From a virus, in the IMG/VR virus record IMGVR_UViG_3300034685_000158, positions 1-20,662 of that record: a stretch of 20,662 nucleotides of DNA; one strand, 5' to 3'. Position 1 is the first letter of the stretch, and every line of letters starts with the position of its first letter. Of this stretch, positions 4,760 through 20,662 are shown one piece after another. The notes beneath the pieces were generated by a model. It was not told the DNA's origin and ran no database searches. It was given only the letters and a program-made list of their open reading frames with translations. The position numbers were made by a program, and so were the translations under genes.

Positions 4760-5710
4760 ATGCCTGTTGTACAAAAAGTTCATGTAGATAAAATGCTTAC
4801 TAACATTTCAGTAGGTTATAAAAATGAAGATTTTATAGCTGATGAAATATTCAAAGTTGTATCTGTTCAAAAGCAATCGGATAGATACTATGTATATGGC
4901 AAAGAAATGTTTAGGGTAACTGATGATAGAAGGGCACCTGGTACTTCTGCTAATGAAGTCGATTGGTCTCTGTCTGACGACACCTATTTTTGTGAGGGCC
5001 ATGCACAAAGACACTTTGTACCGGATGAAGCTATCCAGAATGCAGATGAAGAATTTGACCTTGAAGCTGAGGCTACAGAATTTGTAACAAATAAAATTCT
5101 TTTAAATAAAGAGAACTTTGCAGCACAGAAGCTTCTTAATTCAGATAATTATGATTCTGACCTTGTAGTTGCTACTGGTGGAACGGGACAGCCTGCAAAG
5201 TGGTCTGATTATGAAAATTCTGACCCACTTGCTCTTATTGAAGAAATGAGAGTAGCTGTACACCAAAAGTCAGGGCTTCCTGTAAATACTTTAATTTTAT
5301 CGCAGCCTGTTTACAGCAAGCTCCGTATCCATCCTAAGCTTGTTTCAGTGTTTAAGAATACTGATATAAGCATAGTTCCTCTTAATGTTATGGCTGAACT
5401 GTTTGAGGTTGATAGAATCCTTGTAGGTAAAGCCCTTAAGTCCACTGCAATTACTGAAGATGGTAATGATCCTCTTGGTTATATTTGGGGTAAGTCAGCT
5501 ATTCTTGCATACATTCCGCCCAGACCTGCAAGGAAAACCCCTGCACTTGGTTACCAGTTCCAGTGGGTAAGGGGCGGACAGGGAGCCGTACAGGTAACTA
5601 AGTGGTATGACCAGGATAGAAAAGCTACTATAATTGAAGCTGAGCAGTATTACGATCTAAAAGTAGTGTCAAATGTAGCTGGAGTATTATTCCCTGATGT
5701 TGTTGCTTAA
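4760..5710 (+). CDS. Major capsid protein
   Basis: A 316-residue major capsid protein of HK97 fold, the main shell subunit. The N-terminus (HVDKMLTNISVGYKNEDFIADEIF, then QSDRYYVYGKE and RAPGTSANEVDW) is a well-known signature of one large capsid family, followed by a FVPDEAIQNADEEFDLEAEATEFV helix that corresponds to the spine helix, the A-domain region LALIEEMRVAVHQKSG...LILSQPVYSKL, and a C-terminal WYDQDRKATIIEAEQYYDLKVV segment. The ribosome site AAGAAAGGAGATGG before the ATG is one of the strongest in the window, as expected for a protein made in hundreds of copies. No separate N-terminal delta domain is evident, which fits the scaffold being carried on the protease gene. A GC-rich hairpin follows. 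Confidence 0.93.
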   Translation: MPVVQKVHVDKMLTNISVGYKNEDFIADEIFKVVSVQKQSDRYYVYGKEMFRVTDDRRAPGTSANEVDWSLSDDTYFCEGHAQRHFVPDEAIQNADEEFDLEAEATEFVTNKILLNKENFAAQKLLNSDNYDSDLVVATGGTGQPAKWSDYENSDPLALIEEMRVAVHQKSGLPVNTLILSQPVYSKLRIHPKLVSVFKNTDISIVPLNVMAELFEVDRILVGKALKSTAITEDGNDPLGYIWGKSAILAYIPPRPARKTPALGYQFQWVRGGQGAVQVTKWYDQDRKATIIEAEQYYDLKVVSNVAGVLFPDVVA

Positions 5711-10142: not shown

Positions 10143-13100
10143 ATGGCTGAAGAATTAAATAATGTACAGCATAATCTTAATGCTGATGTTGATATAAGTT
10201 TTGAGAGTGGAATAGAAAGTATACTTAGATTTGCAGAACAAATTGAATCTGTAAATAGTGTTTTTTCACAGTTATCTTTTACAGCAGAAAATTTGGAAGA
10301 TAAAATAGTTCGTAAATTTAATGAATTAGGCAATTTGCTTAATGATTCTAAACCTATAGCCGATGTAAATGAAGCTGTCGCTAAAAAAATTCAGCATAAA
10401 ATAAATCGTTATATTTCTCAATATGTAGATAATCTTAGCTTTTCTACTGAAACTAGCCGTTTAAATAAACAGCCTTTTGATGAATTTAATAAAAATTTTA
10501 CCAATAGTATAGATAAATTTATTAGGGAAATTAATACAAAACTGAGTACTGGTTTAATAAAATCTGCTAACAAAGAGGATGTTTTGAATTTTATTAGGAA
10601 ATTGATTAGTTTAAGAGATACGACCAGTAATTTATATAAGAAAATTTTTAATGCTGTGCCAAGTGAAGAAAGATTGGTGCAGCTTGAAAATATAAGGGCT
10701 GGTATATTTAAAGAACTTGATACTCTTGAAGGTATTGATAAGTTTGGTAGTACTTTTAAACAATTTAAACAACAGATTACTGATCTGTTTAATGGCATTA
10801 TATCTAAATATGAACAAGTTCTACAAAGTCAAACAAAAGGTGTTAGTGTTGGTGATGAGACTGTAATTTCAAAAACAGCCTTAAATAAATTAAGAAGTAA
10901 AATAAAACAGGCTATTTTAGATAGTTTAGATGTAAAATTTGGTACCAACGCCTTGAGTATTACTATTGATAAAAGCTCTGTTGGTGAGATACAAAAGGTA
11001 ATTGCAGAGCATTTTAATGAAATGATAAAAAAAGGTGATATTCAAATAGATACGGATGATACTGATATAGATAAAAATAGAAAAGATATTGAAGCTAGAA
11101 TAAAAGAGTATGATGAGAATATTGCCAAGATACGTGAAAAATTAAATAAAAAACTTATGGCAAGGGCTGATGCTTTAGCCAGCGGGGATCCTTTGGATAT
11201 GATGGCCTATGAAGATAAAAGCTTTAAAGTTGAAATAAGAAAACTTAAAGATGATCTAACAAAACAGGAAGCAGAACGTAAAAAGTTAGTTGATAACCTA
11301 AGTACTGTTCAATCTAATGTTTTATTCATTACAAACGAAAATTTGAAAAAATATTGGGCCACTATACAAAATAAGTTTGCTGAATTACTTTCTGAAACAA
11401 CCCTTAAAGGGTTGGATGATTTAGAGCCTATAAAGGTAGATAAAATTAAACAGGTAATTAACCAACTTAGTGAGACTATAAATAAGTCTTTTGAAGGCTT
11501 AAAAATTGATAAAGAAACTTTAAATAAAATACCTGAATTAGGTAAATCTATAGAGAAGTTTAATACTTCTATATCTGATATAATTAGTTTACTGTCAGAT
11601 TTAGGTAATAATTTTGCTTCGAAGCCAACCGCCGATTTTAAAAAATCTTTAACAAAAGTGAACGATGCTTTAGTTGGAGTAAAGCAACAAATAGATAATT
11701 ATGTTATTGACTATATTAATAAAATTATTCCTGAAAATTTATTTGCTGATGGAGTTACTGTTAATACCGATCCAGCTAAAAAAATAAATAAAAAGGCTAG
11801 TGCTAAACTTAAAAATTTAGAAAAACAACTAGATGAGCTATTGGAAAAAATTCCAGTAGAAACTGATGAAGCACAAAGAATAGAATTAGGTGTTAAACTT
11901 GTTGAATTAAATAAAGAAATAGAAAGGCTTACTGCATCTACTGGGGAAAAAGTTTTACAGCAAGTAGATAAAGTCAGAAAAGAGCCTTTAATTTCTCAAA
12001 ATTTAATACAAAAGTTTGTTGAAAAATTTTCACAAGAGCTAGAATCGTTGATAGATGTTTCTAAAATTGATGGTTTAAATACTATAAAGGAAAAGATAGC
12101 AGCTTTAGATAAAAATTTTAAAGAATTGGATCAAAATCTTAAATCAATACTTACAGAAAAAGAAGTTGGTATTGATAAGGAGATTGTTGTCTTTAAATCT
12201 AACATTGAAGAATTAGGGAAGAACTTTGAAAATATTAATGCTTTATTGAAATCCGCTGATGTGGGCGGACTAAAATCAGCTATTGAATCTTTAATAAATG
12301 GGTTAAATAGTTTAGCAAAAGATATTAATGCTATATCAGCGCAGGTTTATGTAGAAGATAGAAGTGATGATCGTATAGTAAGGGACATAAAAAATTACAA
12401 ATATGCGTTTGATGCTTATGAGTTAAAGCCTGACGAAGACCCTGCTCAAAAGTTCAGATATATGGAAAATGCTTATAAAGTATTGTTTGATAGGTATATA
12501 GCTTTAAGTAAATATGAGATTAATAAACTTTCTCCTGAGAGTGTTTTTGACTTACGTGAATTGAAAGAAACCGTTTTATATAAGTATTTTAATAATACAT
12601 TTGAAGGTTCTACTTATGATTTAATCGAGAGGTTTAAAGATATAGGTAAAAAATTAAACCCTGCCTTATATGATGAAACCTTGAAAATAGATGTACCTGT
12701 TGAAAGCTTATATAAAACTATAACTACTCAAATCAATGAGATTGTAGCAAGACTTACTGATATTTTAAAGAATGAAGTTGAAAAAATTTCTACAGACTCA
12801 GAAAAATTATTAAGCATATCTAAGTCTCAAGATATAGATAATGCAGTAAAAGCAATTAATGATAAGATTGCACAGTTAAGTAACTCTATTAGTAGTGAGT
12901 TTATTTCTGATATAGATAATCTTATAATTGAGTTTAATAAGATAAGTGATCTACTTGGAACAGCTAATGTTAAAGGTTTATATGATGCTGTTAATAATTT
13001 TGTTCAAGCTGTAAATCAACTCACTGGTGAAGTAAATACAGTACCTATTGCTGGAAAATACGATGATTTAAAAATTCAGGGTGTAAAAAAGGGTTCATTT

Positions 13101-16100
13101 GAGGTATGGCATAATACATGGAATCTCGATACTTTGGAAAAAACAAATGGCGGTTTTAAGTTTACACAGAAAGATTCTCCAATAAGTACAGCAGTTTCAC
13201 CTGAGGAAGCTTATTTTGCACCTGCGATAGATGTTCCGGATGGACCAAAAGCAATTTTACACGGTAAATTTGAGGGTAATTATATAGACTTTTTAGAGGA
13301 TAAAGAGGCAGCAAAGGTTATTAACCAGTTATGGAGTTCTATATTAAGAGAAGCTGGTTATGATGATAAATCCTTTTTAGAGCAAAAGCAAGAAACAAAA
13401 AGTGCATTGTACCTTAAGATGCTTAATACTTTGAGGTCAAAAGGGATTGACGCTTTAAAGAATTTTTCAATCCACCATGTTAATGCAGAAGAGCGTTTTA
13501 TATCACCTGGTGAGCTTCAAATTCTTCGTGCTGATTCTTTATCAGATTTCAGTGTTTTTCATTCACTAGATTTAGGCAATATTACAGAGAAAAACCTATT
13601 AGAAAAAATTAAACAAAAAATTGTACCTTCTTATATGAAAGGTTATATAAATGAAGATAGTGTATCGTATGAAATATCTAAACTTGTTTCGGATAATTTT
13701 TCAGAGTTACCAGCTATTCAAAAAATAAAGCAATATTTAGAGAAAGGTTTAAAATTTAGTGACACAGAGAAAAATTTGCGTGCTTATACTTCTGCTGAAG
13801 CGACGATGATAGACCGTTTACAGAAAAAAACAGACTATTTAATTAAAGGGATAGATTTAGAAAGTACAAACACAAGAGTACCGAAAAAACTTTCAGCAGA
13901 AACTATTGCAGCTTTACAGGGTAAATTAGATAACGTAAAACAAGAAATTAAGGGTATACCTTTAAACGAAACTATAGCTAATATTGCTCAGAAAATAAAT
14001 TTTTTGGGTGATAACTTTAAAGTTATCGAAACTAATTTACAAAAAGCACTAAATATAAAATCTAAAGGATTAGATGTACATGTGAGTAATCTTCCTGCAA
14101 TTATACAGGAGTTAGGTCGGAATTTTGAAAAAATAACCGCTTCCCTACAAAGTTTAAGCCTTGAAAATATACAGGTTGCAGTTAATAATTTTGCTAAAAC
14201 TTTACAAAAATTTGAGGGTGCTTATTCAAAGAAAGTAGGGAATGTAGACATCAGTGGTAATATTGAAAATTTGAATAAGAGTCTTAGAGAGTTGCAACAA
14301 GAAATACGCAATTCTGATAACGGTATTACTGCGGCAAGGCTTATTGTTGATGGTATTAATCAAAAAATCGAACAATTTGTTAAATCACTTATAGCTCTTT
14401 CAGCTAAAATTGTTAATGTAGATACAGCCACCCTCAGTATAAAACTGACACCTGAACAGTTACAATCACTTGAAGCTCAACTTGAAGGTGTGAATATTGT
14501 AAATGTTAATGAGATTAGTGGACCAATAAACACTGCACTTAAAAATTTGTTAGGTAATGCCGGGAAAATTATAGAAAGCCAGTTATCTAATATAATGAAT
14601 CAAGAAGATATAAAAATACCAAAGTTACAGACGAAAAAGATAGTATCTCAGCTTACTACCTTGGTTAATACTTTTATGACAGGGTATGTAAATGCTGTAG
14701 CTGAAAATTCTTTAATTTACAAACCATTAGAAATTAAAACTAAAGATTTACCGCAAAGCATTAAAAATGCTCTTGCTAAGAAAGCAGGGGTGTCTTTAGA
14801 AGATTATTTAAAGAGGACGCCTACTATTGGAGGGGCGACTGTTTTAGCTGAAACTTTGGAGCAAAATATGGGCGCTTTATCTGCTAAGTTGCACGAAGCA
14901 GCTATGAATAACGAGAACCGTTTGTTTAGTGAGTATAAAAATGCAATAAAGGGTATAAAAGTTAAGGTAGATACATCTCCAGTAGAGTATTTCACTAATA
15001 ATATTACAAGCATACAACAAGAGATAATTGCTAAAATAAAAGAAATAATGCGTGTTCAATTTTCGGAAATTAATAAACAGATAAAAGAATTAAAAGCTGT
15101 ACCTGTTGGATTTAATTATGTTCCAAAGAATATTCCCTCCACTATACCTGTAAAAACTGCAACAGTACAATCATACGGAGCAAAAGTAAATATACCTCGT
15201 GGTACTGTTAATATTCCTGTTCCATATCGTGTGGGAGACGATCTTGATTTTACAACGATATATCAAAAGGCTGGCGGGCTTGGAAGTCATGTTAATAATA
15301 GAACATTGTTAAATTCTATATTGAATACTATGCGTTATATACTTGCAGGTTCGTTATTAAAAGGTCCTTATGCTTACTTATATCAAGGGTGGGAGTCTGC
15401 TAAAGATTTTGAAGCATCATTAGTGAAGGCACAGATTAACTTATCTGGGTCTAATGAAGAATTGTTCAGAGATTTCGCCAGAACTAGAATTGAAAAGGCA
15501 GTTGAACTTGGTGTTACCAACGCACTAAGTCACCTAAAAGGTATAACTGATACAGAAGCAATGGTAGATGCAGAAGTAGCTTTCCTTAAAAAATATGTAA
15601 CAGAAGATGTAAGAAAAGATTTGCAGAATATATCATTAAGATATATAATATCACAGGCACAATTAGGTCAGATGTTTGAAATTGCTTCAAGGAGTACTAC
15701 TGATCCTTTTGAAGCAAGAGCTATTACAGAAACCGCCGCCCGTTTGTTTGCGGCAGAGCCTGGGGTAGGGTCTCCTGAAGAAATTGCGGATGCTTTACAG
15801 GCTTCTATAGTACAGATGGGTATGACTGGTTTTGATACAAAGAGACTTTCTGAGATATTCTTTAATATATCAACAAACTTCAGGGTAAGCACTAAAGACT
15901 TGCTTAAATTTACTGCAACTGCTGGTGCTGTGATGTCAGACGAGTTAAAAAATTATCAGACTGAAGAATTAGCAAAATTAAAGCAAGAAATAGAATCAGC
16001 TACAGGCAGCAGGAGAAAAGAGCTAGAAGAAAGATATAAGCAAGTTAAACTTGATACTGATATAGCCTTAACTGGTCTCATAGGCGCACTAATTACAGAA

Positions 16101-19100
16101 GGATCAAATAAAACTGGAACAGAAGCTGCTAGAATGATGATACAATTTTTTAACTCACTTAATACGCCGGAGACAAGAAAACTATTGGAGGATATTGCTG
16201 GCAGTAATCCTAAATATGCTAGTATACTACCATATAAATACACTCCAAACCAAGAAGGGCTACCGTTTACTGAAAAAACGAGTGGAATAGAATCGTTTTT
16301 TACAATACTCAAACTAGCAAATGAGATGGAATCACAGGGTGATGCAAGACTAGCGGGTGAAATGCTTAGAAAAGTATTCGGTAGGTATACTGGTGCTGGT
16401 AAAGCTGTTGATAAAATGATTGAAATTATAATGCAAAGATTTCCAGAATATAGGAAAGAAGGCAAGGACCCGGTACAAGGTATTATAGAGGACTTTAAAA
16501 AGAACTCAGATCTGTTTATGGAAGAAGCCATTGCAAAAAATAATATGACTTTAGCAAAAAGAACAGAACGTGCAGCAGTAACATGGGAAGCTGCAATGAG
16601 TAATGTTTTTATGGAATTTAAAGATGATATAAGTTTTGCAATGGATGCTATTACAAATATACTGAGAATTATAAGAGACAATGCAGACTTTGTGGCAGGA
16701 TTGATAAAAAATCTTATTAATATTTTAATAGGCGCAGGGGTAAGGCATTATGGTGGTAAATTGTTTGATAAAATCAATGCTAATGTTCTTGCTAGTGAAA
16801 GGGATTTATTAGTTGAGCCGTGGAAACAAAAAATAAAAGAAGATATTAAACAGAGAGCTGAGATGCAAAAAGATCTATTGAATTATGATGAAAAATTATC
16901 AAAAGCTGTTAATGTATATGAATCAGCAAGACAAGCTTATTTTAATTTAACGGGTGTAAACTTAGGGGATGTCGATGAAAAGAATCAACCTCAATTTACT
17001 AATAAATCTGTAAGAGAAATTTTAAATACTAGTGATGATGCTGTTGAAAGGGCTTTACTTGCATTATACAGTAGTCAAATTGATTCTGAAAAAGCGTCGA
17101 GATATACTATTGAAGGTAATAATATTGGGTTTAATATGTATGATGCTAAAATTTTATCTAAATTTGCCGAGAAATTGAAGTCTGGAAATAAACTATCTCC
17201 AGATGAAATCCGTAAAGCTAGACAGCGTTTGTTAAAATATAGTGGACAATTATCAGAGTTTGGTCCAGAATTATTCGATTCGGATACTGATATAGCACTT
17301 GTTACAGGTCAGAGTACTGGTGATGGCGGCATTATTGGAAGATTGAAAGCTAAAGCTTCTATGTTAGAAGAGAATTTACAAATGTTTAAAAATGACAACA
17401 TCTTATTAAATGTTGTTGGTGGAAGTATTTCAGGCATTTTACCTAGATCAAAAGAAGAATTATTAACTAGAGCAAATAAATATATACAAAGTTTAGAGTC
17501 TTTAGTAGATGAAGATGATGACATAGCAATGTTAAAACAATTATTAGACAATGAACAAGAAGATTCTAAAGAATATGCAAAGCTAGTAGAAGATATTAAT
17601 AAAAGACGGTCGCAGGTAGAAACATCTTTAGGTATACCAAGATTGAAAGAAGCTTTAGAAGCATATAAATCTAGTGAGATTGATTTTGAGAGTGTCGCCA
17701 ATACGATAAAGGAATTTGAGGATAATCTTCAAAAAATAAAATCTGGTATTCCAGTGAATAGGGTTGAAGCAGAGAGTGAAGAGCAGGAAAACCTTTTAAG
17801 GTTAAAGGCTTTAAGGGAAGCTTATGTAACTTTATATGGGGAAGATGCTACTAATGATAAGAAGTTAAATAATATTAACCAAAGAATATCCATGTCACAG
17901 AGAAGGTTGGAAAAAATAAAGAGCGGCCAATTTACCAATAGTGAAATAGAGCAGCTTGTAGATCAATTGAATGGGATGAAGCAGTTTAATGTTACTCCTG
18001 AAAATTATGGTGACATGGTAGAAACTCTAAACCAAATAAAAGCAGCTGTAGCCGTATATGAAGATGAGGCTGAAAAAATACTGAATAAAGCTACTAGAGC
18101 AGCTTCTACTATTTCAGAATTATCTTTAGGTAAAGGTAAACATGTAAATAAGCTTGCTGAACTTGATACTGCCATAGCTGAATCTCATAATGTAGTTAAA
18201 AATATTATTGAAGCTTATTCAAATATGGGAGCCGCCCCCCGTATTGAAAAAGGTAAAAGCACTATAGGCGGATTAAAAGATACTAAATTATTGAAAACCA
18301 TTGATAATTTAAAACAGGGATATATTAAAACCATAGCTGAAATGGTACCAGTATCAACCAATGCTTTTATAGATGCTGTAAACAGCTTAACAGATAGAAT
18401 GTTTAACAAGAAAATACTAGGTAAGTTGGATGAGGAGCAGGTTGAAAAAGCCATACTCAAAGCTATGGGTGGGGACTATACTGAGGCAGACAAGTTATTT
18501 GGGGAAAAATCAAAAGATATTGTATTAGGGTATGAAGAAATAAATACAGGAATTAGTAATGCTAAAAAACTTGTTGATAATTTAAGTAAGCAAAAACAAA
18601 TAATACAGGAAATAAGTAAGTTGCGCGAAAGCGATGAACTTAAAAACTATAAAGATTATATTACTGATAAGGGTGAAATATATGAAGAAAAATTTTATAG
18701 TGATAAAATACCTGGATATTCTTTAGACAAATCTGATGATGAAAATATCAAAAAGCAAACACAAATTTTAAAATCTGAACTTGATTCTATAGGTAAGACT
18801 CAAGCAGGCCAAAAACTATTAGAATTAAGAAAACAGCTTAATAACTTAACAGGAGAAGCAGATGCTTTAGCAAATGCGTCACGTAGAGCTGCGCAAGGAC
18901 AAGCACAACTTTCCGATGCGACAAAACGACTTGTTACAGAACATGAGTTAGGTGTAACAAAAGATTCCGAATTTATAGAGGCGTTGAAAAAAGAACAAGG
19001 GAGTAAACAGCAATCTCCTATGCAATTGGCATTAGGTAGTTTAGTAGGTTCTGTAGCAAGTATCGCTGGAAATATTGCTTTGAACTGGGTCATAGGTGAA

Positions 19101-20662
19101 GTTACTACCTTTGCGGCGGGGCGTTTAGCACAACTATTTGAAAGCAGGGCTACTACTGCACGGTTAAGATATGAAAGGGCTTCTGACATAGCACAACGAG
19201 TAGATGAAATTGAAAGGTTAAAAGGTACATCTGATGGAGGGTGGGATTTAAACTTAAAAAAATCAAGGTTAGGTTGGGATATGATTTTAAACAATATACC
19301 TTTTGTTAGTGATTTAATTCTCGGTAAAAGAAAAATATCTGAAGAACAAATGTCAAAAATTATAGGAGGTAAACAAAGTAGAGTTGAGGCTTTAGCAGAA
19401 CTTAAAAAACAGGCGTTAGAGGAAGAATATTTAAGCGAGAAAACTTTTGACGCAGTTAATACTGAAATTTTTAAAAAGTTAAATGAGGCTGTAAGGGGCA
19501 GTAATAACGCGGCCATAAAAAGAGAAGCAGAATTATATGACACAGAAACTTGGATAGACTTTGCCATGAATAGGCTTGTAGGGCCTGAGGAAAGAGATAT
19601 AAATTATGAATCTTTAATAAAGAAGCTTGAATTAAGGTCTAAAGGGTTTAGAGATACTTCACAAGAAATGATTAATATTGAAGTTCAAACAGCTAAAAAA
19701 TTGGCTGACTTATATGAGAAAGGTGCTGCATTTATAAAGGCAAAAATGGAGATAATGGAAAAAAATGCAGAAGAATTAGGTACTGATGTTAATACAGAAG
19801 CTTATTTAAAGTTGAAAGAAAATTATTTGACATTAAAAGAGAAAGCTGCCCAAGCTCAAAGTATTGTTTCAGATGTTTTTTCACAAATTAATAGATTGTT
19901 TGCTGATATAGAGGCAGATCTCAGTAATGCTTTAATTGGTATTGATATAGCTGATATTAGCAGTAAAATACAACGGTGGCGGTCTGGTATACCGGAATAC
20001 TCAGGAGTGGCTATTAATCAGCAAATATCTGTTTTACAATCTCGTGTCAGTGAGTATAAAAAGGCTGAGGAAGAAGAAAGGCAAAAACTTGCTAGACTTA
20101 AAGATGATGAAAAAAATAGTGGTATGTATAAAGATTTAGAAACTAAATATAAGAGTACTGTAGAAAAACGGAAGCAGGCAGAGTATGATTTAGTTGTAGC
20201 TATGCAGCAACTTCCAATATCTTCTGCTGAGACTTTAATGAATATGGCTGCTGCTACTGCTGATGTTGAAGCCAGAATTGCATTGGCTAAAGCACAATTA
20301 AAAGGATTGGGAGAAGATTCATTATATGCGAGGCTTATGCAAAAACAAAGGCTTGAAAAAATAAATGAGGCTTATGGTAGTATGATAGCCGCATTAAACG
20401 AACAGTACAATAAAAAACAGGGTGACTACCAGAAGATATGGATTGAGATGAAAGAGCTTGAAGCTAAGCAGCTTGAAAATTTAGTAGCTATAAAGAAACT
20501 TAATGAGAATAAAATATCCTTTAACTTACCGGATGGGTTGCGAGTTATGACATATAACGATTATCTGCAATCTACAGGAAACGAAAGGAGTTTTACATCG
20601 CAATTTAAAGCATTTAATTTGAATATAAATTTTGGTGATGTGACTGTAAGAAGTGATAATGA
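10143..20662 (+). CDS. Giant tape measure protein, 3' end outside the window
   Basis: One frame stays open from the ATG at 10143 to the last base, at least 3,506 codons. I followed it codon by codon over most of its length without meeting a stop. The start follows GGAGGGCGG. Product: tape measure protein, which fills the tail tube, sets tail length and helps DNA enter the cell. Residues 1-~1,690 are charged, helical, coiled-coil-like, with recurring LGxNF motifs (487, 691, 1288, 1324) and a compact insert at ~980-1145. A Val/Pro/Thr-rich linker (~1,655-1,700) leads to the TP901-like core (~1,700-2,190). Hydrophobic stretches lie at ~2,180-2,200 and ~2,960-3,000. The final residues NINFGDVTVRSDN resemble a motif close to the C-terminus in other tape measures, so the stop may be near. 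Confidence 0.93.
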   Translation, partial: MAEELNNVQHNLNADVDISFESGIESILRFAEQIESVNSVFSQLSFTAENLEDKIVRKFNELGNLLNDSKPIADVNEAVAKKIQHKINRYISQYVDNLSFSTETSRLNKQPFDEFNKNFTNSIDKFIREINTKLSTGLIKSANKEDVLNFIRKLISLRDTTSNLYKKIFNAVPSEERLVQLENIRAGIFKELDTLEGIDKFGSTFKQFKQQITDLFNGIISKYEQVLQSQTKGVSVGDETVISKTALNKLRSKIKQAILDSLDVKFGTNALSITIDKSSVGEIQKVIAEHFNEMIKKGDIQIDTDDTDIDKNRKDIEARIKEYDENIAKIREKLNKKLMARADALASGDPLDMMAYEDKSFKVEIRKLKDDLTKQEAERKKLVDNLSTVQSNVLFITNENLKKYWATIQNKFAELLSETTLKGLDDLEPIKVDKIKQVINQLSETINKSFEGLKIDKETLNKIPELGKSIEKFNTSISDIISLLSDLGNNFASKPTADFKKSLTKVNDALVGVKQQIDNYVIDYINKIIPENLFADGVTVNTDPAKKINKKASAKLKNLEKQLDELLEKIPVETDEAQRIELGVKLVELNKEIERLTASTGEKVLQQVDKVRKEPLISQNLIQKFVEKFSQELESLIDVSKIDGLNTIKEKIAALDKNFKELDQNLKSILTEKEVGIDKEIVVFKSNIEELGKNFENINALLKSADVGGLKSAIESLINGLNSLAKDINAISAQVYVEDRSDDRIVRDIKNYKYAFDAYELKPDEDPAQKFRYMENAYKVLFDRYIALSKYEINKLSPESVFDLRELKETVLYKYFNNTFEGSTYDLIERFKDIGKKLNPALYDETLKIDVPVESLYKTITTQINEIVARLTDILKNEVEKISTDSEKLLSISKSQDIDNAVKAINDKIAQLSNSISSEFISDIDNLIIEFNKISDLLGTANVKGLYDAVNNFVQAVNQLTGEVNTVPIAGKYDDLKIQGVKKGSFEVWHNTWNLDTLEKTNGGFKFTQKDSPISTAVSPEEAYFAPAIDVPDGPKAILHGKFEGNYIDFLEDKEAAKVINQLWSSILREAGYDDKSFLEQKQETKSALYLKMLNTLRSKGIDALKNFSIHHVNAEERFISPGELQILRADSLSDFSVFHSLDLGNITEKNLLEKIKQKIVPSYMKGYINEDSVSYEISKLVSDNFSELPAIQKIKQYLEKGLKFSDTEKNLRAYTSAEATMIDRLQKKTDYLIKGIDLESTNTRVPKKLSAETIAALQGKLDNVKQEIKGIPLNETIANIAQKINFLGDNFKVIETNLQKALNIKSKGLDVHVSNLPAIIQELGRNFEKITASLQSLSLENIQVAVNNFAKTLQKFEGAYSKKVGNVDISGNIENLNKSLRELQQEIRNSDNGITAARLIVDGINQKIEQFVKSLIALSAKIVNVDTATLSIKLTPEQLQSLEAQLEGVNIVNVNEISGPINTALKNLLGNAGKIIESQLSNIMNQEDIKIPKLQTKKIVSQLTTLVNTFMTGYVNAVAENSLIYKPLEIKTKDLPQSIKNALAKKAGVSLEDYLKRTPTIGGATVLAETLEQNMGALSAKLHEAAMNNENRLFSEYKNAIKGIKVKVDTSPVEYFTNNITSIQQEIIAKIKEIMRVQFSEINKQIKELKAVPVGFNYVPKNIPSTIPVKTATVQSYGAKVNIPRGTVNIPVPYRVGDDLDFTTIYQKAGGLGSHVNNRTLLNSILNTMRYILAGSLLKGPYAYLYQGWESAKDFEASLVKAQINLSGSNEELFRDFARTRIEKAVELGVTNALSHLKGITDTEAMVDAEVAFLKKYVTEDVRKDLQNISLRYIISQAQLGQMFEIASRSTTDPFEARAITETAARLFAAEPGVGSPEEIADALQASIVQMGMTGFDTKRLSEIFFNISTNFRVSTKDLLKFTATAGAVMSDELKNYQTEELAKLKQEIESATGSRRKELEERYKQVKLDTDIALTGLIGALITEGSNKTGTEAARMMIQFFNSLNTPETRKLLEDIAGSNPKYASILPYKYTPNQEGLPFTEKTSGIESFFTILKLANEMESQGDARLAGEMLRKVFGRYTGAGKAVDKMIEIIMQRFPEYRKEGKDPVQGIIEDFKKNSDLFMEEAIAKNNMTLAKRTERAAVTWEAAMSNVFMEFKDDISFAMDAITNILRIIRDNADFVAGLIKNLINILIGAGVRHYGGKLFDKINANVLASERDLLVEPWKQKIKEDIKQRAEMQKDLLNYDEKLSKAVNVYESARQAYFNLTGVNLGDVDEKNQPQFTNKSVREILNTSDDAVERALLALYSSQIDSEKASRYTIEGNNIGFNMYDAKILSKFAEKLKSGNKLSPDEIRKARQRLLKYSGQLSEFGPELFDSDTDIALVTGQSTGDGGIIGRLKAKASMLEENLQMFKNDNILLNVVGGSISGILPRSKEELLTRANKYIQSLESLVDEDDDIAMLKQLLDNEQEDSKEYAKLVEDINKRRSQVETSLGIPRLKEALEAYKSSEIDFESVANTIKEFEDNLQKIKSGIPVNRVEAESEEQENLLRLKALREAYVTLYGEDATNDKKLNNINQRISMSQRRLEKIKSGQFTNSEIEQLVDQLNGMKQFNVTPENYGDMVETLNQIKAAVAVYEDEAEKILNKATRAASTISELSLGKGKHVNKLAELDTAIAESHNVVKNIIEAYSNMGAAPRIEKGKSTIGGLKDTKLLKTIDNLKQGYIKTIAEMVPVSTNAFIDAVNSLTDRMFNKKILGKLDEEQVEKAILKAMGGDYTEADKLFGEKSKDIVLGYEEINTGISNAKKLVDNLSKQKQIIQEISKLRESDELKNYKDYITDKGEIYEEKFYSDKIPGYSLDKSDDENIKKQTQILKSELDSIGKTQAGQKLLELRKQLNNLTGEADALANASRRAAQGQAQLSDATKRLVTEHELGVTKDSEFIEALKKEQGSKQQSPMQLALGSLVGSVASIAGNIALNWVIGEVTTFAAGRLAQLFESRATTARLRYERASDIAQRVDEIERLKGTSDGGWDLNLKKSRLGWDMILNNIPFVSDLILGKRKISEEQMSKIIGGKQSRVEALAELKKQALEEEYLSEKTFDAVNTEIFKKLNEAVRGSNNAAIKREAELYDTETWIDFAMNRLVGPEERDINYESLIKKLELRSKGFRDTSQEMINIEVQTAKKLADLYEKGAAFIKAKMEIMEKNAEELGTDVNTEAYLKLKENYLTLKEKAAQAQSIVSDVFSQINRLFADIEADLSNALIGIDIADISSKIQRWRSGIPEYSGVAINQQISVLQSRVSEYKKAEEEERQKLARLKDDEKNSGMYKDLETKYKSTVEKRKQAEYDLVVAMQQLPISSAETLMNMAAATADVEARIALAKAQLKGLGEDSLYARLMQKQRLEKINEAYGSMIAALNEQYNKKQGDYQKIWIEMKELEAKQLENLVAIKKLNENKISFNLPDGLRVMTYNDYLQSTGNERSFTSQFKAFNLNINFGDVTVRSDN
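13080..13575 (+). other. Compact ADP-ribosyltransferase-like insert in the tape measure
   Basis: Residues ~980-1145 break the coiled-coil pattern: aromatic- and Gly-rich, with predicted strands. Order of motifs: VWHNT (His990), GGFKFT, SPEEAYFAPAI, KAILHGKFEGNYIDF, SKGIDALKN (Gly1101-Asp1103), then EERFISPGELQIL (Glu1116/1117). This order recalls polyvalent phage ADP-ribosyltransferase domains (H...T, a YFT-type segment, GyDGI, then a Glu before a P-x-Q/E-I strand). The match is by eye, and another small alpha/beta fold is possible. Confidence 0.4.
15237..16750 (+). other. TP901-like tape measure core region
   Basis: Residues ~1,700-2,200 match the usual core layout: entry segment (KGPYAYLYQGWESAKDFEASLVKAQINLSG), helical hairpins with ARLFAAEPGVGSPEEIADALQASIVQMG, then STNFRVSTKDLLKFTATAGAVMSDE, ALTGLIGALITEGSNKTGTEAARMM, and a late WEAAMSNVFMEFKDDISFAM helix followed by the hydrophobic stretch FVAGLIKNLINILIGAGV. 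In most tape measures this core starts within the first few hundred residues. Confidence 0.65.

Follow-up and report, generated by a model that had tools for sequence, protein, structure and literature searches.

An apparently exchangeable cassette between repeats of a phage tape measure protein and its possible ADP-ribosyltransferase-like content

A giant tail gene and its repeats

The window (the whole stretch of DNA that was analysed, 20,662 nucleotides) is a metagenome contig, positions 1-20,662 of IMG/VR virus record IMGVR_UViG_3300034685_000158. Its genes run from head to tail: portal, scaffold-like protein, major capsid protein, tail proteins and then a giant open reading frame. The features of this run to which the argument refers are the following.

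4760..5710, + strand: major capsid protein (phrog_1005, E 3.8e-89), which served as the query for relatives
10143..20660, + strand: tail tape measure protein (TMP), an open reading frame of 3506 amino acids whose 3' end is cut off by the window
12102..12326, + strand: TMP repeat unit 1, residues 654-728 (repeat HMM, and BLAST between repeats)
12852..13034, + strand: TMP repeat unit 2, residues 904-964, the left border of the cassette (repeat HMM)
13992..14225, + strand: TMP repeat unit 3, residues 1284-1361, the right border of the cassette (repeat HMM)

The giant open reading frame is very long and lies after the tail tube and chaperone genes; in order and size it agrees with the gene annotated as TMP in Brevibacillus phage Jenst, the major capsid protein of which is 39% identical to that of the window. 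The window protein matches the TMP domain PF10145 (PhageMin_Tail) below threshold (17.7 bits), and its homologue in a more distant relative (L011) exceeds the cut-off (55.8 bits). Since synteny with the Jenst gene and this match in the homologue agree, 10143-20660 is, judged from sequence, the tape measure of a siphovirus-type phage. In that more distant relative an ORF resembling a TnpB/IS605-type transposase by eye lies just upstream of the TMP gene (L011:6700-7791).

The repeats, of about 75 amino acids, are 29-37% identical to each other with E values of about 1e-6 to 1e-5 in BLAST comparisons, which are independent of the repeat HMM. A second small embedded module, kept in the sister phage described below, lies further downstream: about 90 amino acids at 16992-17258 (TMP residues 2284-2372) match phrog_21015 (E 5e-20) and also small stand-alone hypothetical phage proteins, among them the product of a single gene of about 108 amino acids in Rhizobium phage RHph_I1_18, to which they are 38% identical.

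The slot between repeat units 2 and 3

The comparison that defines the cassette is with a sister phage, itself a metagenome contig (IMG/VR contig 3300033998_000262; L003/L009), whose capsid protein is 99% identical to that of the window and whose TMP has 3660 amino acids. At residues 1-100 the two TMPs hardly differ, and their protein sequences are near-identical once more from about residue 1389; over residues 100-1388 they diverge strongly. Protein identity is 100% at residues 1401-2550 and at least 84% per 50-residue block beyond. Left of the slot the TMP DNA is 80-89% identical in two stretches, and between the flanks there is no DNA match. Two further features follow from this comparison.

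13035..13991, + strand: cassette of 319 amino acids, residues 965-1283, between repeat units 2 and 3
14307..20660, + strand: TMP portion with a nearly identical counterpart in the sister phage (DNA identity 97.5%, beginning at 13994)

Each TMP has three repeats, those of the sister protein lying at residues 422-496, 672-727 and 1415-1490. Between the same two repeats that border the window cassette, the sister TMP carries a different insert of 687 amino acids (residues 728-1414). The two inserts share no similarity beyond chance except at their right ends (LIKGI..), recognisable homology resuming near window residue 1233 (LIKGIDLES in the window, LIKGIEIDS in the sister).

Both inserts are the composition peaks of their own TMPs (z 3.0 in the window, 3.4 in the sister); no such peak is seen in the N-terminal halves of three other related TMPs. 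In the window, where the protein outside the island (residues 985-1145, below) is mostly helical, the 120-residue stretch from residue 961 has an F/W/Y/H/P/G/C content of 0.267 against a TMP mean of 0.142 (z about 3.0), the highest at that window size; with 100-residue windows a conserved Pro-rich stretch near residue 1651 equals it. The frame is open through the island, with neither stops nor frameshifts. The preliminary description had placed a compact domain inside the TMP, and a discrete, non-helical domain there is supported. The sister insert has a GC content of 0.259 against 0.306 for its TMP; for the window island (0.344, with 0.319 for the TMP) an argument for acquisition based on GC was dropped.

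Because repeat units 2 and 3 flank both inserts and the sister phage has a different insert among otherwise the same tail genes, we take this place in the TMP to be a cassette slot. On this reading the island forms the globular portion of a cassette that can be exchanged between two TMP repeats; only two cassette variants are known.

Two other differences between the phages may be recorded here. A block of about 230 amino acids in the window (11052-11750, TMP residues ~304-535) is missing in the sister phage; its absence partly offsets the larger sister cassette and possibly bears on what the cassette contributes to tail length. Inside the sister tail gene cluster, on the minus strand, lies a gene that by eye resembles BRO/antirepressor genes (L009:13121-13837).

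Possible ADP-ribosyltransferase-like features of the two cassettes

The preliminary description had read the island as resembling an ADP-ribosyltransferase (ART) domain of the phage polyvalent kind. ART-PolyVal (PF18760) comprises the Tox-ART-HYD2-like ARTs of phage polyvalent proteins (PMC5512222), and DUF3990 (PF13151) belongs to the ART clan (PMC7955679). The relevant parts of the island are:

13095..13577, + strand: island, residues 985-1145, candidate divergent ART-like domain (composition peak; motif chain equalled by 21/1000 shuffles; profiles silent)
13110..13112, + strand: His990 (VWHNT), candidate strand-1 His, aligned to YHGT by motif only
13158..13160, + strand: Lys1006 (GFKFT), which in the preferred register stands where ART-PolyVal has its strand-2 Tyr/Phe
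13488..13490, + strand: Glu1116 (EERFISPGELQ), with the Glu-to-Pro spacing (P1122) of EYIVFNPNQIK in ART-PolyVal

The motifs lie where they had been placed: VWHNT at 988-992 (13104), GGFKFT at 1003 (13149), EEAYF at 1021 (13203), RSKGIDAL at 1098 (13434) and EERFISPGEL at 1116 (13488), and the numbering of His990 and Glu1116/1117 is correct. As to what they signify, the results are mixed. When five ART-PolyVal motif blocks are placed freely in the 3506 residues, the best chain lands on the island, as the proposed signature would have it; its score of 26.9 is, on the other hand, equalled by 21/1000 shuffles of the island (p≈0.02 locally), and unrelated TMPs score 27-28. Profile searches are silent, and in the profile tests the island does not stand out from its shuffles. 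The island has no match to PF18760 at E<=10 (curated cut-off 31.2 bits), none to DUF3990 and none in HMMER to our own ART-PolyVal profile (38 domains, including those of phage vRNAPs); its hhalign probability is 0.6%, and its glocal score is reached by 24/200 shuffles. The strand-2 position is Y/F/W in 36/38 ART-PolyVal members and K in none; an alternative register puts Phe1005 in place of the Tyr. In the profile, the strand-5 column aligned with Glu1116 is not confined to acidic residues, and the strand of the island is modelled unreliably. AlphaFold2 without homologues gave no usable fold (pLDDT 40.6), and the best Foldseek match of that model (E 0.44, to kinesins) is meaningless.

Searches for relatives of the island in IMG/VR, in phage and plasmid collections and in 399 Bacillota genomes found none, and family searches of Pfam, PHROGs, NCBIfam and PADLOC, and of the PDB by sequence, gave no usable match. 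No close homologue was found in which conservation of His990 and Glu1116 might be followed; the one sister phage found has a different block there.

It is this different block that looks the better ART candidate. In sister residues 925-1125 the H-Y-E motifs occur in order (H936; Y959, in GFYTT; E1099, in EYVV), within YLFHGG (933), GKGFYTT (955), AKKYA (967) and GEYVV (1098). The insert matches DUF3990 at E 0.0087 and 16.2 bits, below the curated cut-off of 32.2 bits, over GKGFYTT and onward, the C-terminal half being without a match; as a yardstick, the accepted ART-PolyVal domain of the RPP1 vRNAP matches DUF3990 at only E 0.0012. Among five TMPs searched with the 38-sequence ART-PolyVal profile, the top match was to sister residues 935-973 (E 0.0095), and hhalign gave the sister domain a probability of 48%. 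Its scores were reached by 0/200 shuffles (glocal) and 6/1000 shuffles (motif chain). The AlphaFold2 model of the sister cassette without homologues (pLDDT 49.5) was rejected as evidence. The motifs and sub-threshold profile matches give moderate support to a weak but recognisable H-Y-E ART-like domain in the sister cassette; to that extent the idea of an ART-like domain in a TMP finds support, in the corresponding slot of a phage that is nearly the same. After it comes a further globular part (L009 residues 1126-1384, L009:4654-5430; RVYSVAPKY...EFFSDFSKALDYLAE...GEFILSDYV), which may be a second domain of the sister cassette and has no family match.

Between the island and the sister ART-like domain pairwise similarity is at z 1.6-1.8, and an unguided MAFFT alignment sets H990 opposite the sister His and RSKGID opposite LKSKGV, and brings the NAE/NGE glutamate regions together. 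That the island is itself an ART is, for all this, a claim that the results do not support: the island lacks a family or profile match, and the strand-2 Tyr of H-Y-[EDQ] is replaced. The case for it is weak, a plausible guess from position and not from the island's own statistics, and we put a divergent or degenerate ART fold at just short of an even chance.

The sister ART-like domain had five matches at E<=0.01 in the 399 genomes, about chance level, one of them a true-looking DUF3990 gene; a search of 151 Paenibacillaceae genomes with PF18760 gave no match and is uninformative. At one Paenibacillaceae genome locus (L040) DUF3990 lies inside a 2702-residue open frame, possibly another very large carrier. 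Brevibacillus phage Jenst has a separate gene, JENST_175 (L111:5842-6540), with no annotation beyond hypothetical; it lies close to the end of the genome, not within the tail cluster, and it matches the first part of an ART-PolyVal domain.

The strongest alternative is that the cassette is globular but not an ART, being some other effector, a domain that acts on the wall or membrane, or a structural bead that takes up its fold once ejected, and that the likeness of HNT, GFKFT and EERF to ART motifs is due to chance. The absence of a statistical ART signal for the island and of the strand-2 Tyr, and the equal motif-chain scores of unrelated TMPs, speak for it, and wall-acting motifs in TMPs are established, for example the peptidoglycan hydrolase motif of mycobacteriophage TM4 (PMC13277306). 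Against it, H, GxxFT, GxD and E..P..L come in the order and at the spacing seen in ART-PolyVal, the sister phage has a better ART candidate in its homologous slot, and the searches with the island matched no hydrolase family. We give this alternative a substantial share of the probability, although under half. That the island is a decayed ART, now a mere spacer in a fast-diverging TMP segment, would suit the lost Tyr, the divergence of residues 100-1388 between the sisters and the presence of the block of about 230 residues in one of them only, but the uninterrupted frame and a composition still of the folded-domain type make it improbable. Chimeric assembly as the source of the slot difference is very improbable, for although both sequences are metagenome contigs, each insert keeps the TMP frame open from end to end and starts and stops at the same repeat borders, and the divergence is graded (80-89% on the left) and not abrupt.

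The tape measure as a possible carrier of early effectors

Virion-delivered ARTs carried in the head take the forms of T4 Alt, MuF fusions and polyvalent proteins. It has been argued that phage ARTs are commonly delivered with the virion, from the head (PMC5512222, PMC9503650). T4 Alt is carried inside the virion and delivered together with the DNA (PMC5512222, PMC9503650); it is an analogue in way of working only, a separate head-packaged protein of the R-S-E clade, to which the cassette does not belong. ART-PolyVal domains, like the window island, sit in very large, multi-part virion proteins and have GxxFT and GxD motifs; the island's strand-1 His, and its candidate for the strand-5 Glu, have surroundings that match theirs. 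The island differs in its lack of a profile match, in the Lys that stands for the strand-2 Tyr and in having a tape measure as carrier; DUF3990 is weakly matched, below threshold, in the sister insert and unmatched in the island. The ART-PolyVal carriers listed in PMC5512222 are vRNAPs, other large phage proteins and proteins of conjugative elements, and tape measures go unmentioned there as in the other ART survey (PMC9503650). Titles and abstracts found in the open-licence literature describe no TMP-embedded ART.

For the carrier, the nearest parallels are the TMP-related effectors of contractile injection systems, Sle1 and Tme, which are TMP-like with exchangeable functional domains (PMC13277306). 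They share with the phage cassette a TMP-like carrier, swappable domains and ejection from a tail-like tube, but they belong to bacterial injection systems and their domains are C-terminal, whereas here the protein is a phage TMP and the cassette internal. The TMP of mycobacteriophage TM4, with an enzymatic motif inside it, resembles our reading of the cassette, except that it acts on the wall.

It is established that TMPs occupy the tail tube and come out of it at infection (reviewed in PMC13277306). The most likely reading of the slot is a swappable, effector-like cassette that would leave with the TMP, and the slot is probably a cassette site for ART-like and other virion-delivered domains. 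As a section of the TMP, the cassette would travel in the tail tube, exit with the protein ahead of the DNA, fold at or inside the host membrane and there act as an early effector. Action in the host ahead of gene expression is argued by analogy, since TMPs leave the tail at infection and phage ARTs have been argued to be commonly virion-delivered. The window cassette may, less securely, be a very divergent and possibly non-catalytic ART-like version in which His990 and Glu1116 were kept and the strand-2 Tyr was lost. An exchangeable TMP cassette acting on the host early, with such a domain in the window, is the explanation we propose, tentatively, at close to but below even probability. A bolder form seems to us unlikely: the TMP would be an injection vehicle with an interchangeable effector slot between two of its repeats, phages that are near-identical elsewhere would differ in the NAD-dependent (ART) enzyme that the slot holds, and the effectors would enter the host cytoplasm ahead of all gene expression and be swapped as host targets or defences change.

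If the proposal is true, tail-carried cassettes would offer a route for first-strike enzymes that is independent of the head, and slots of this kind could be found by comparing sister TMPs, even where the domains in them are too divergent for family searches.
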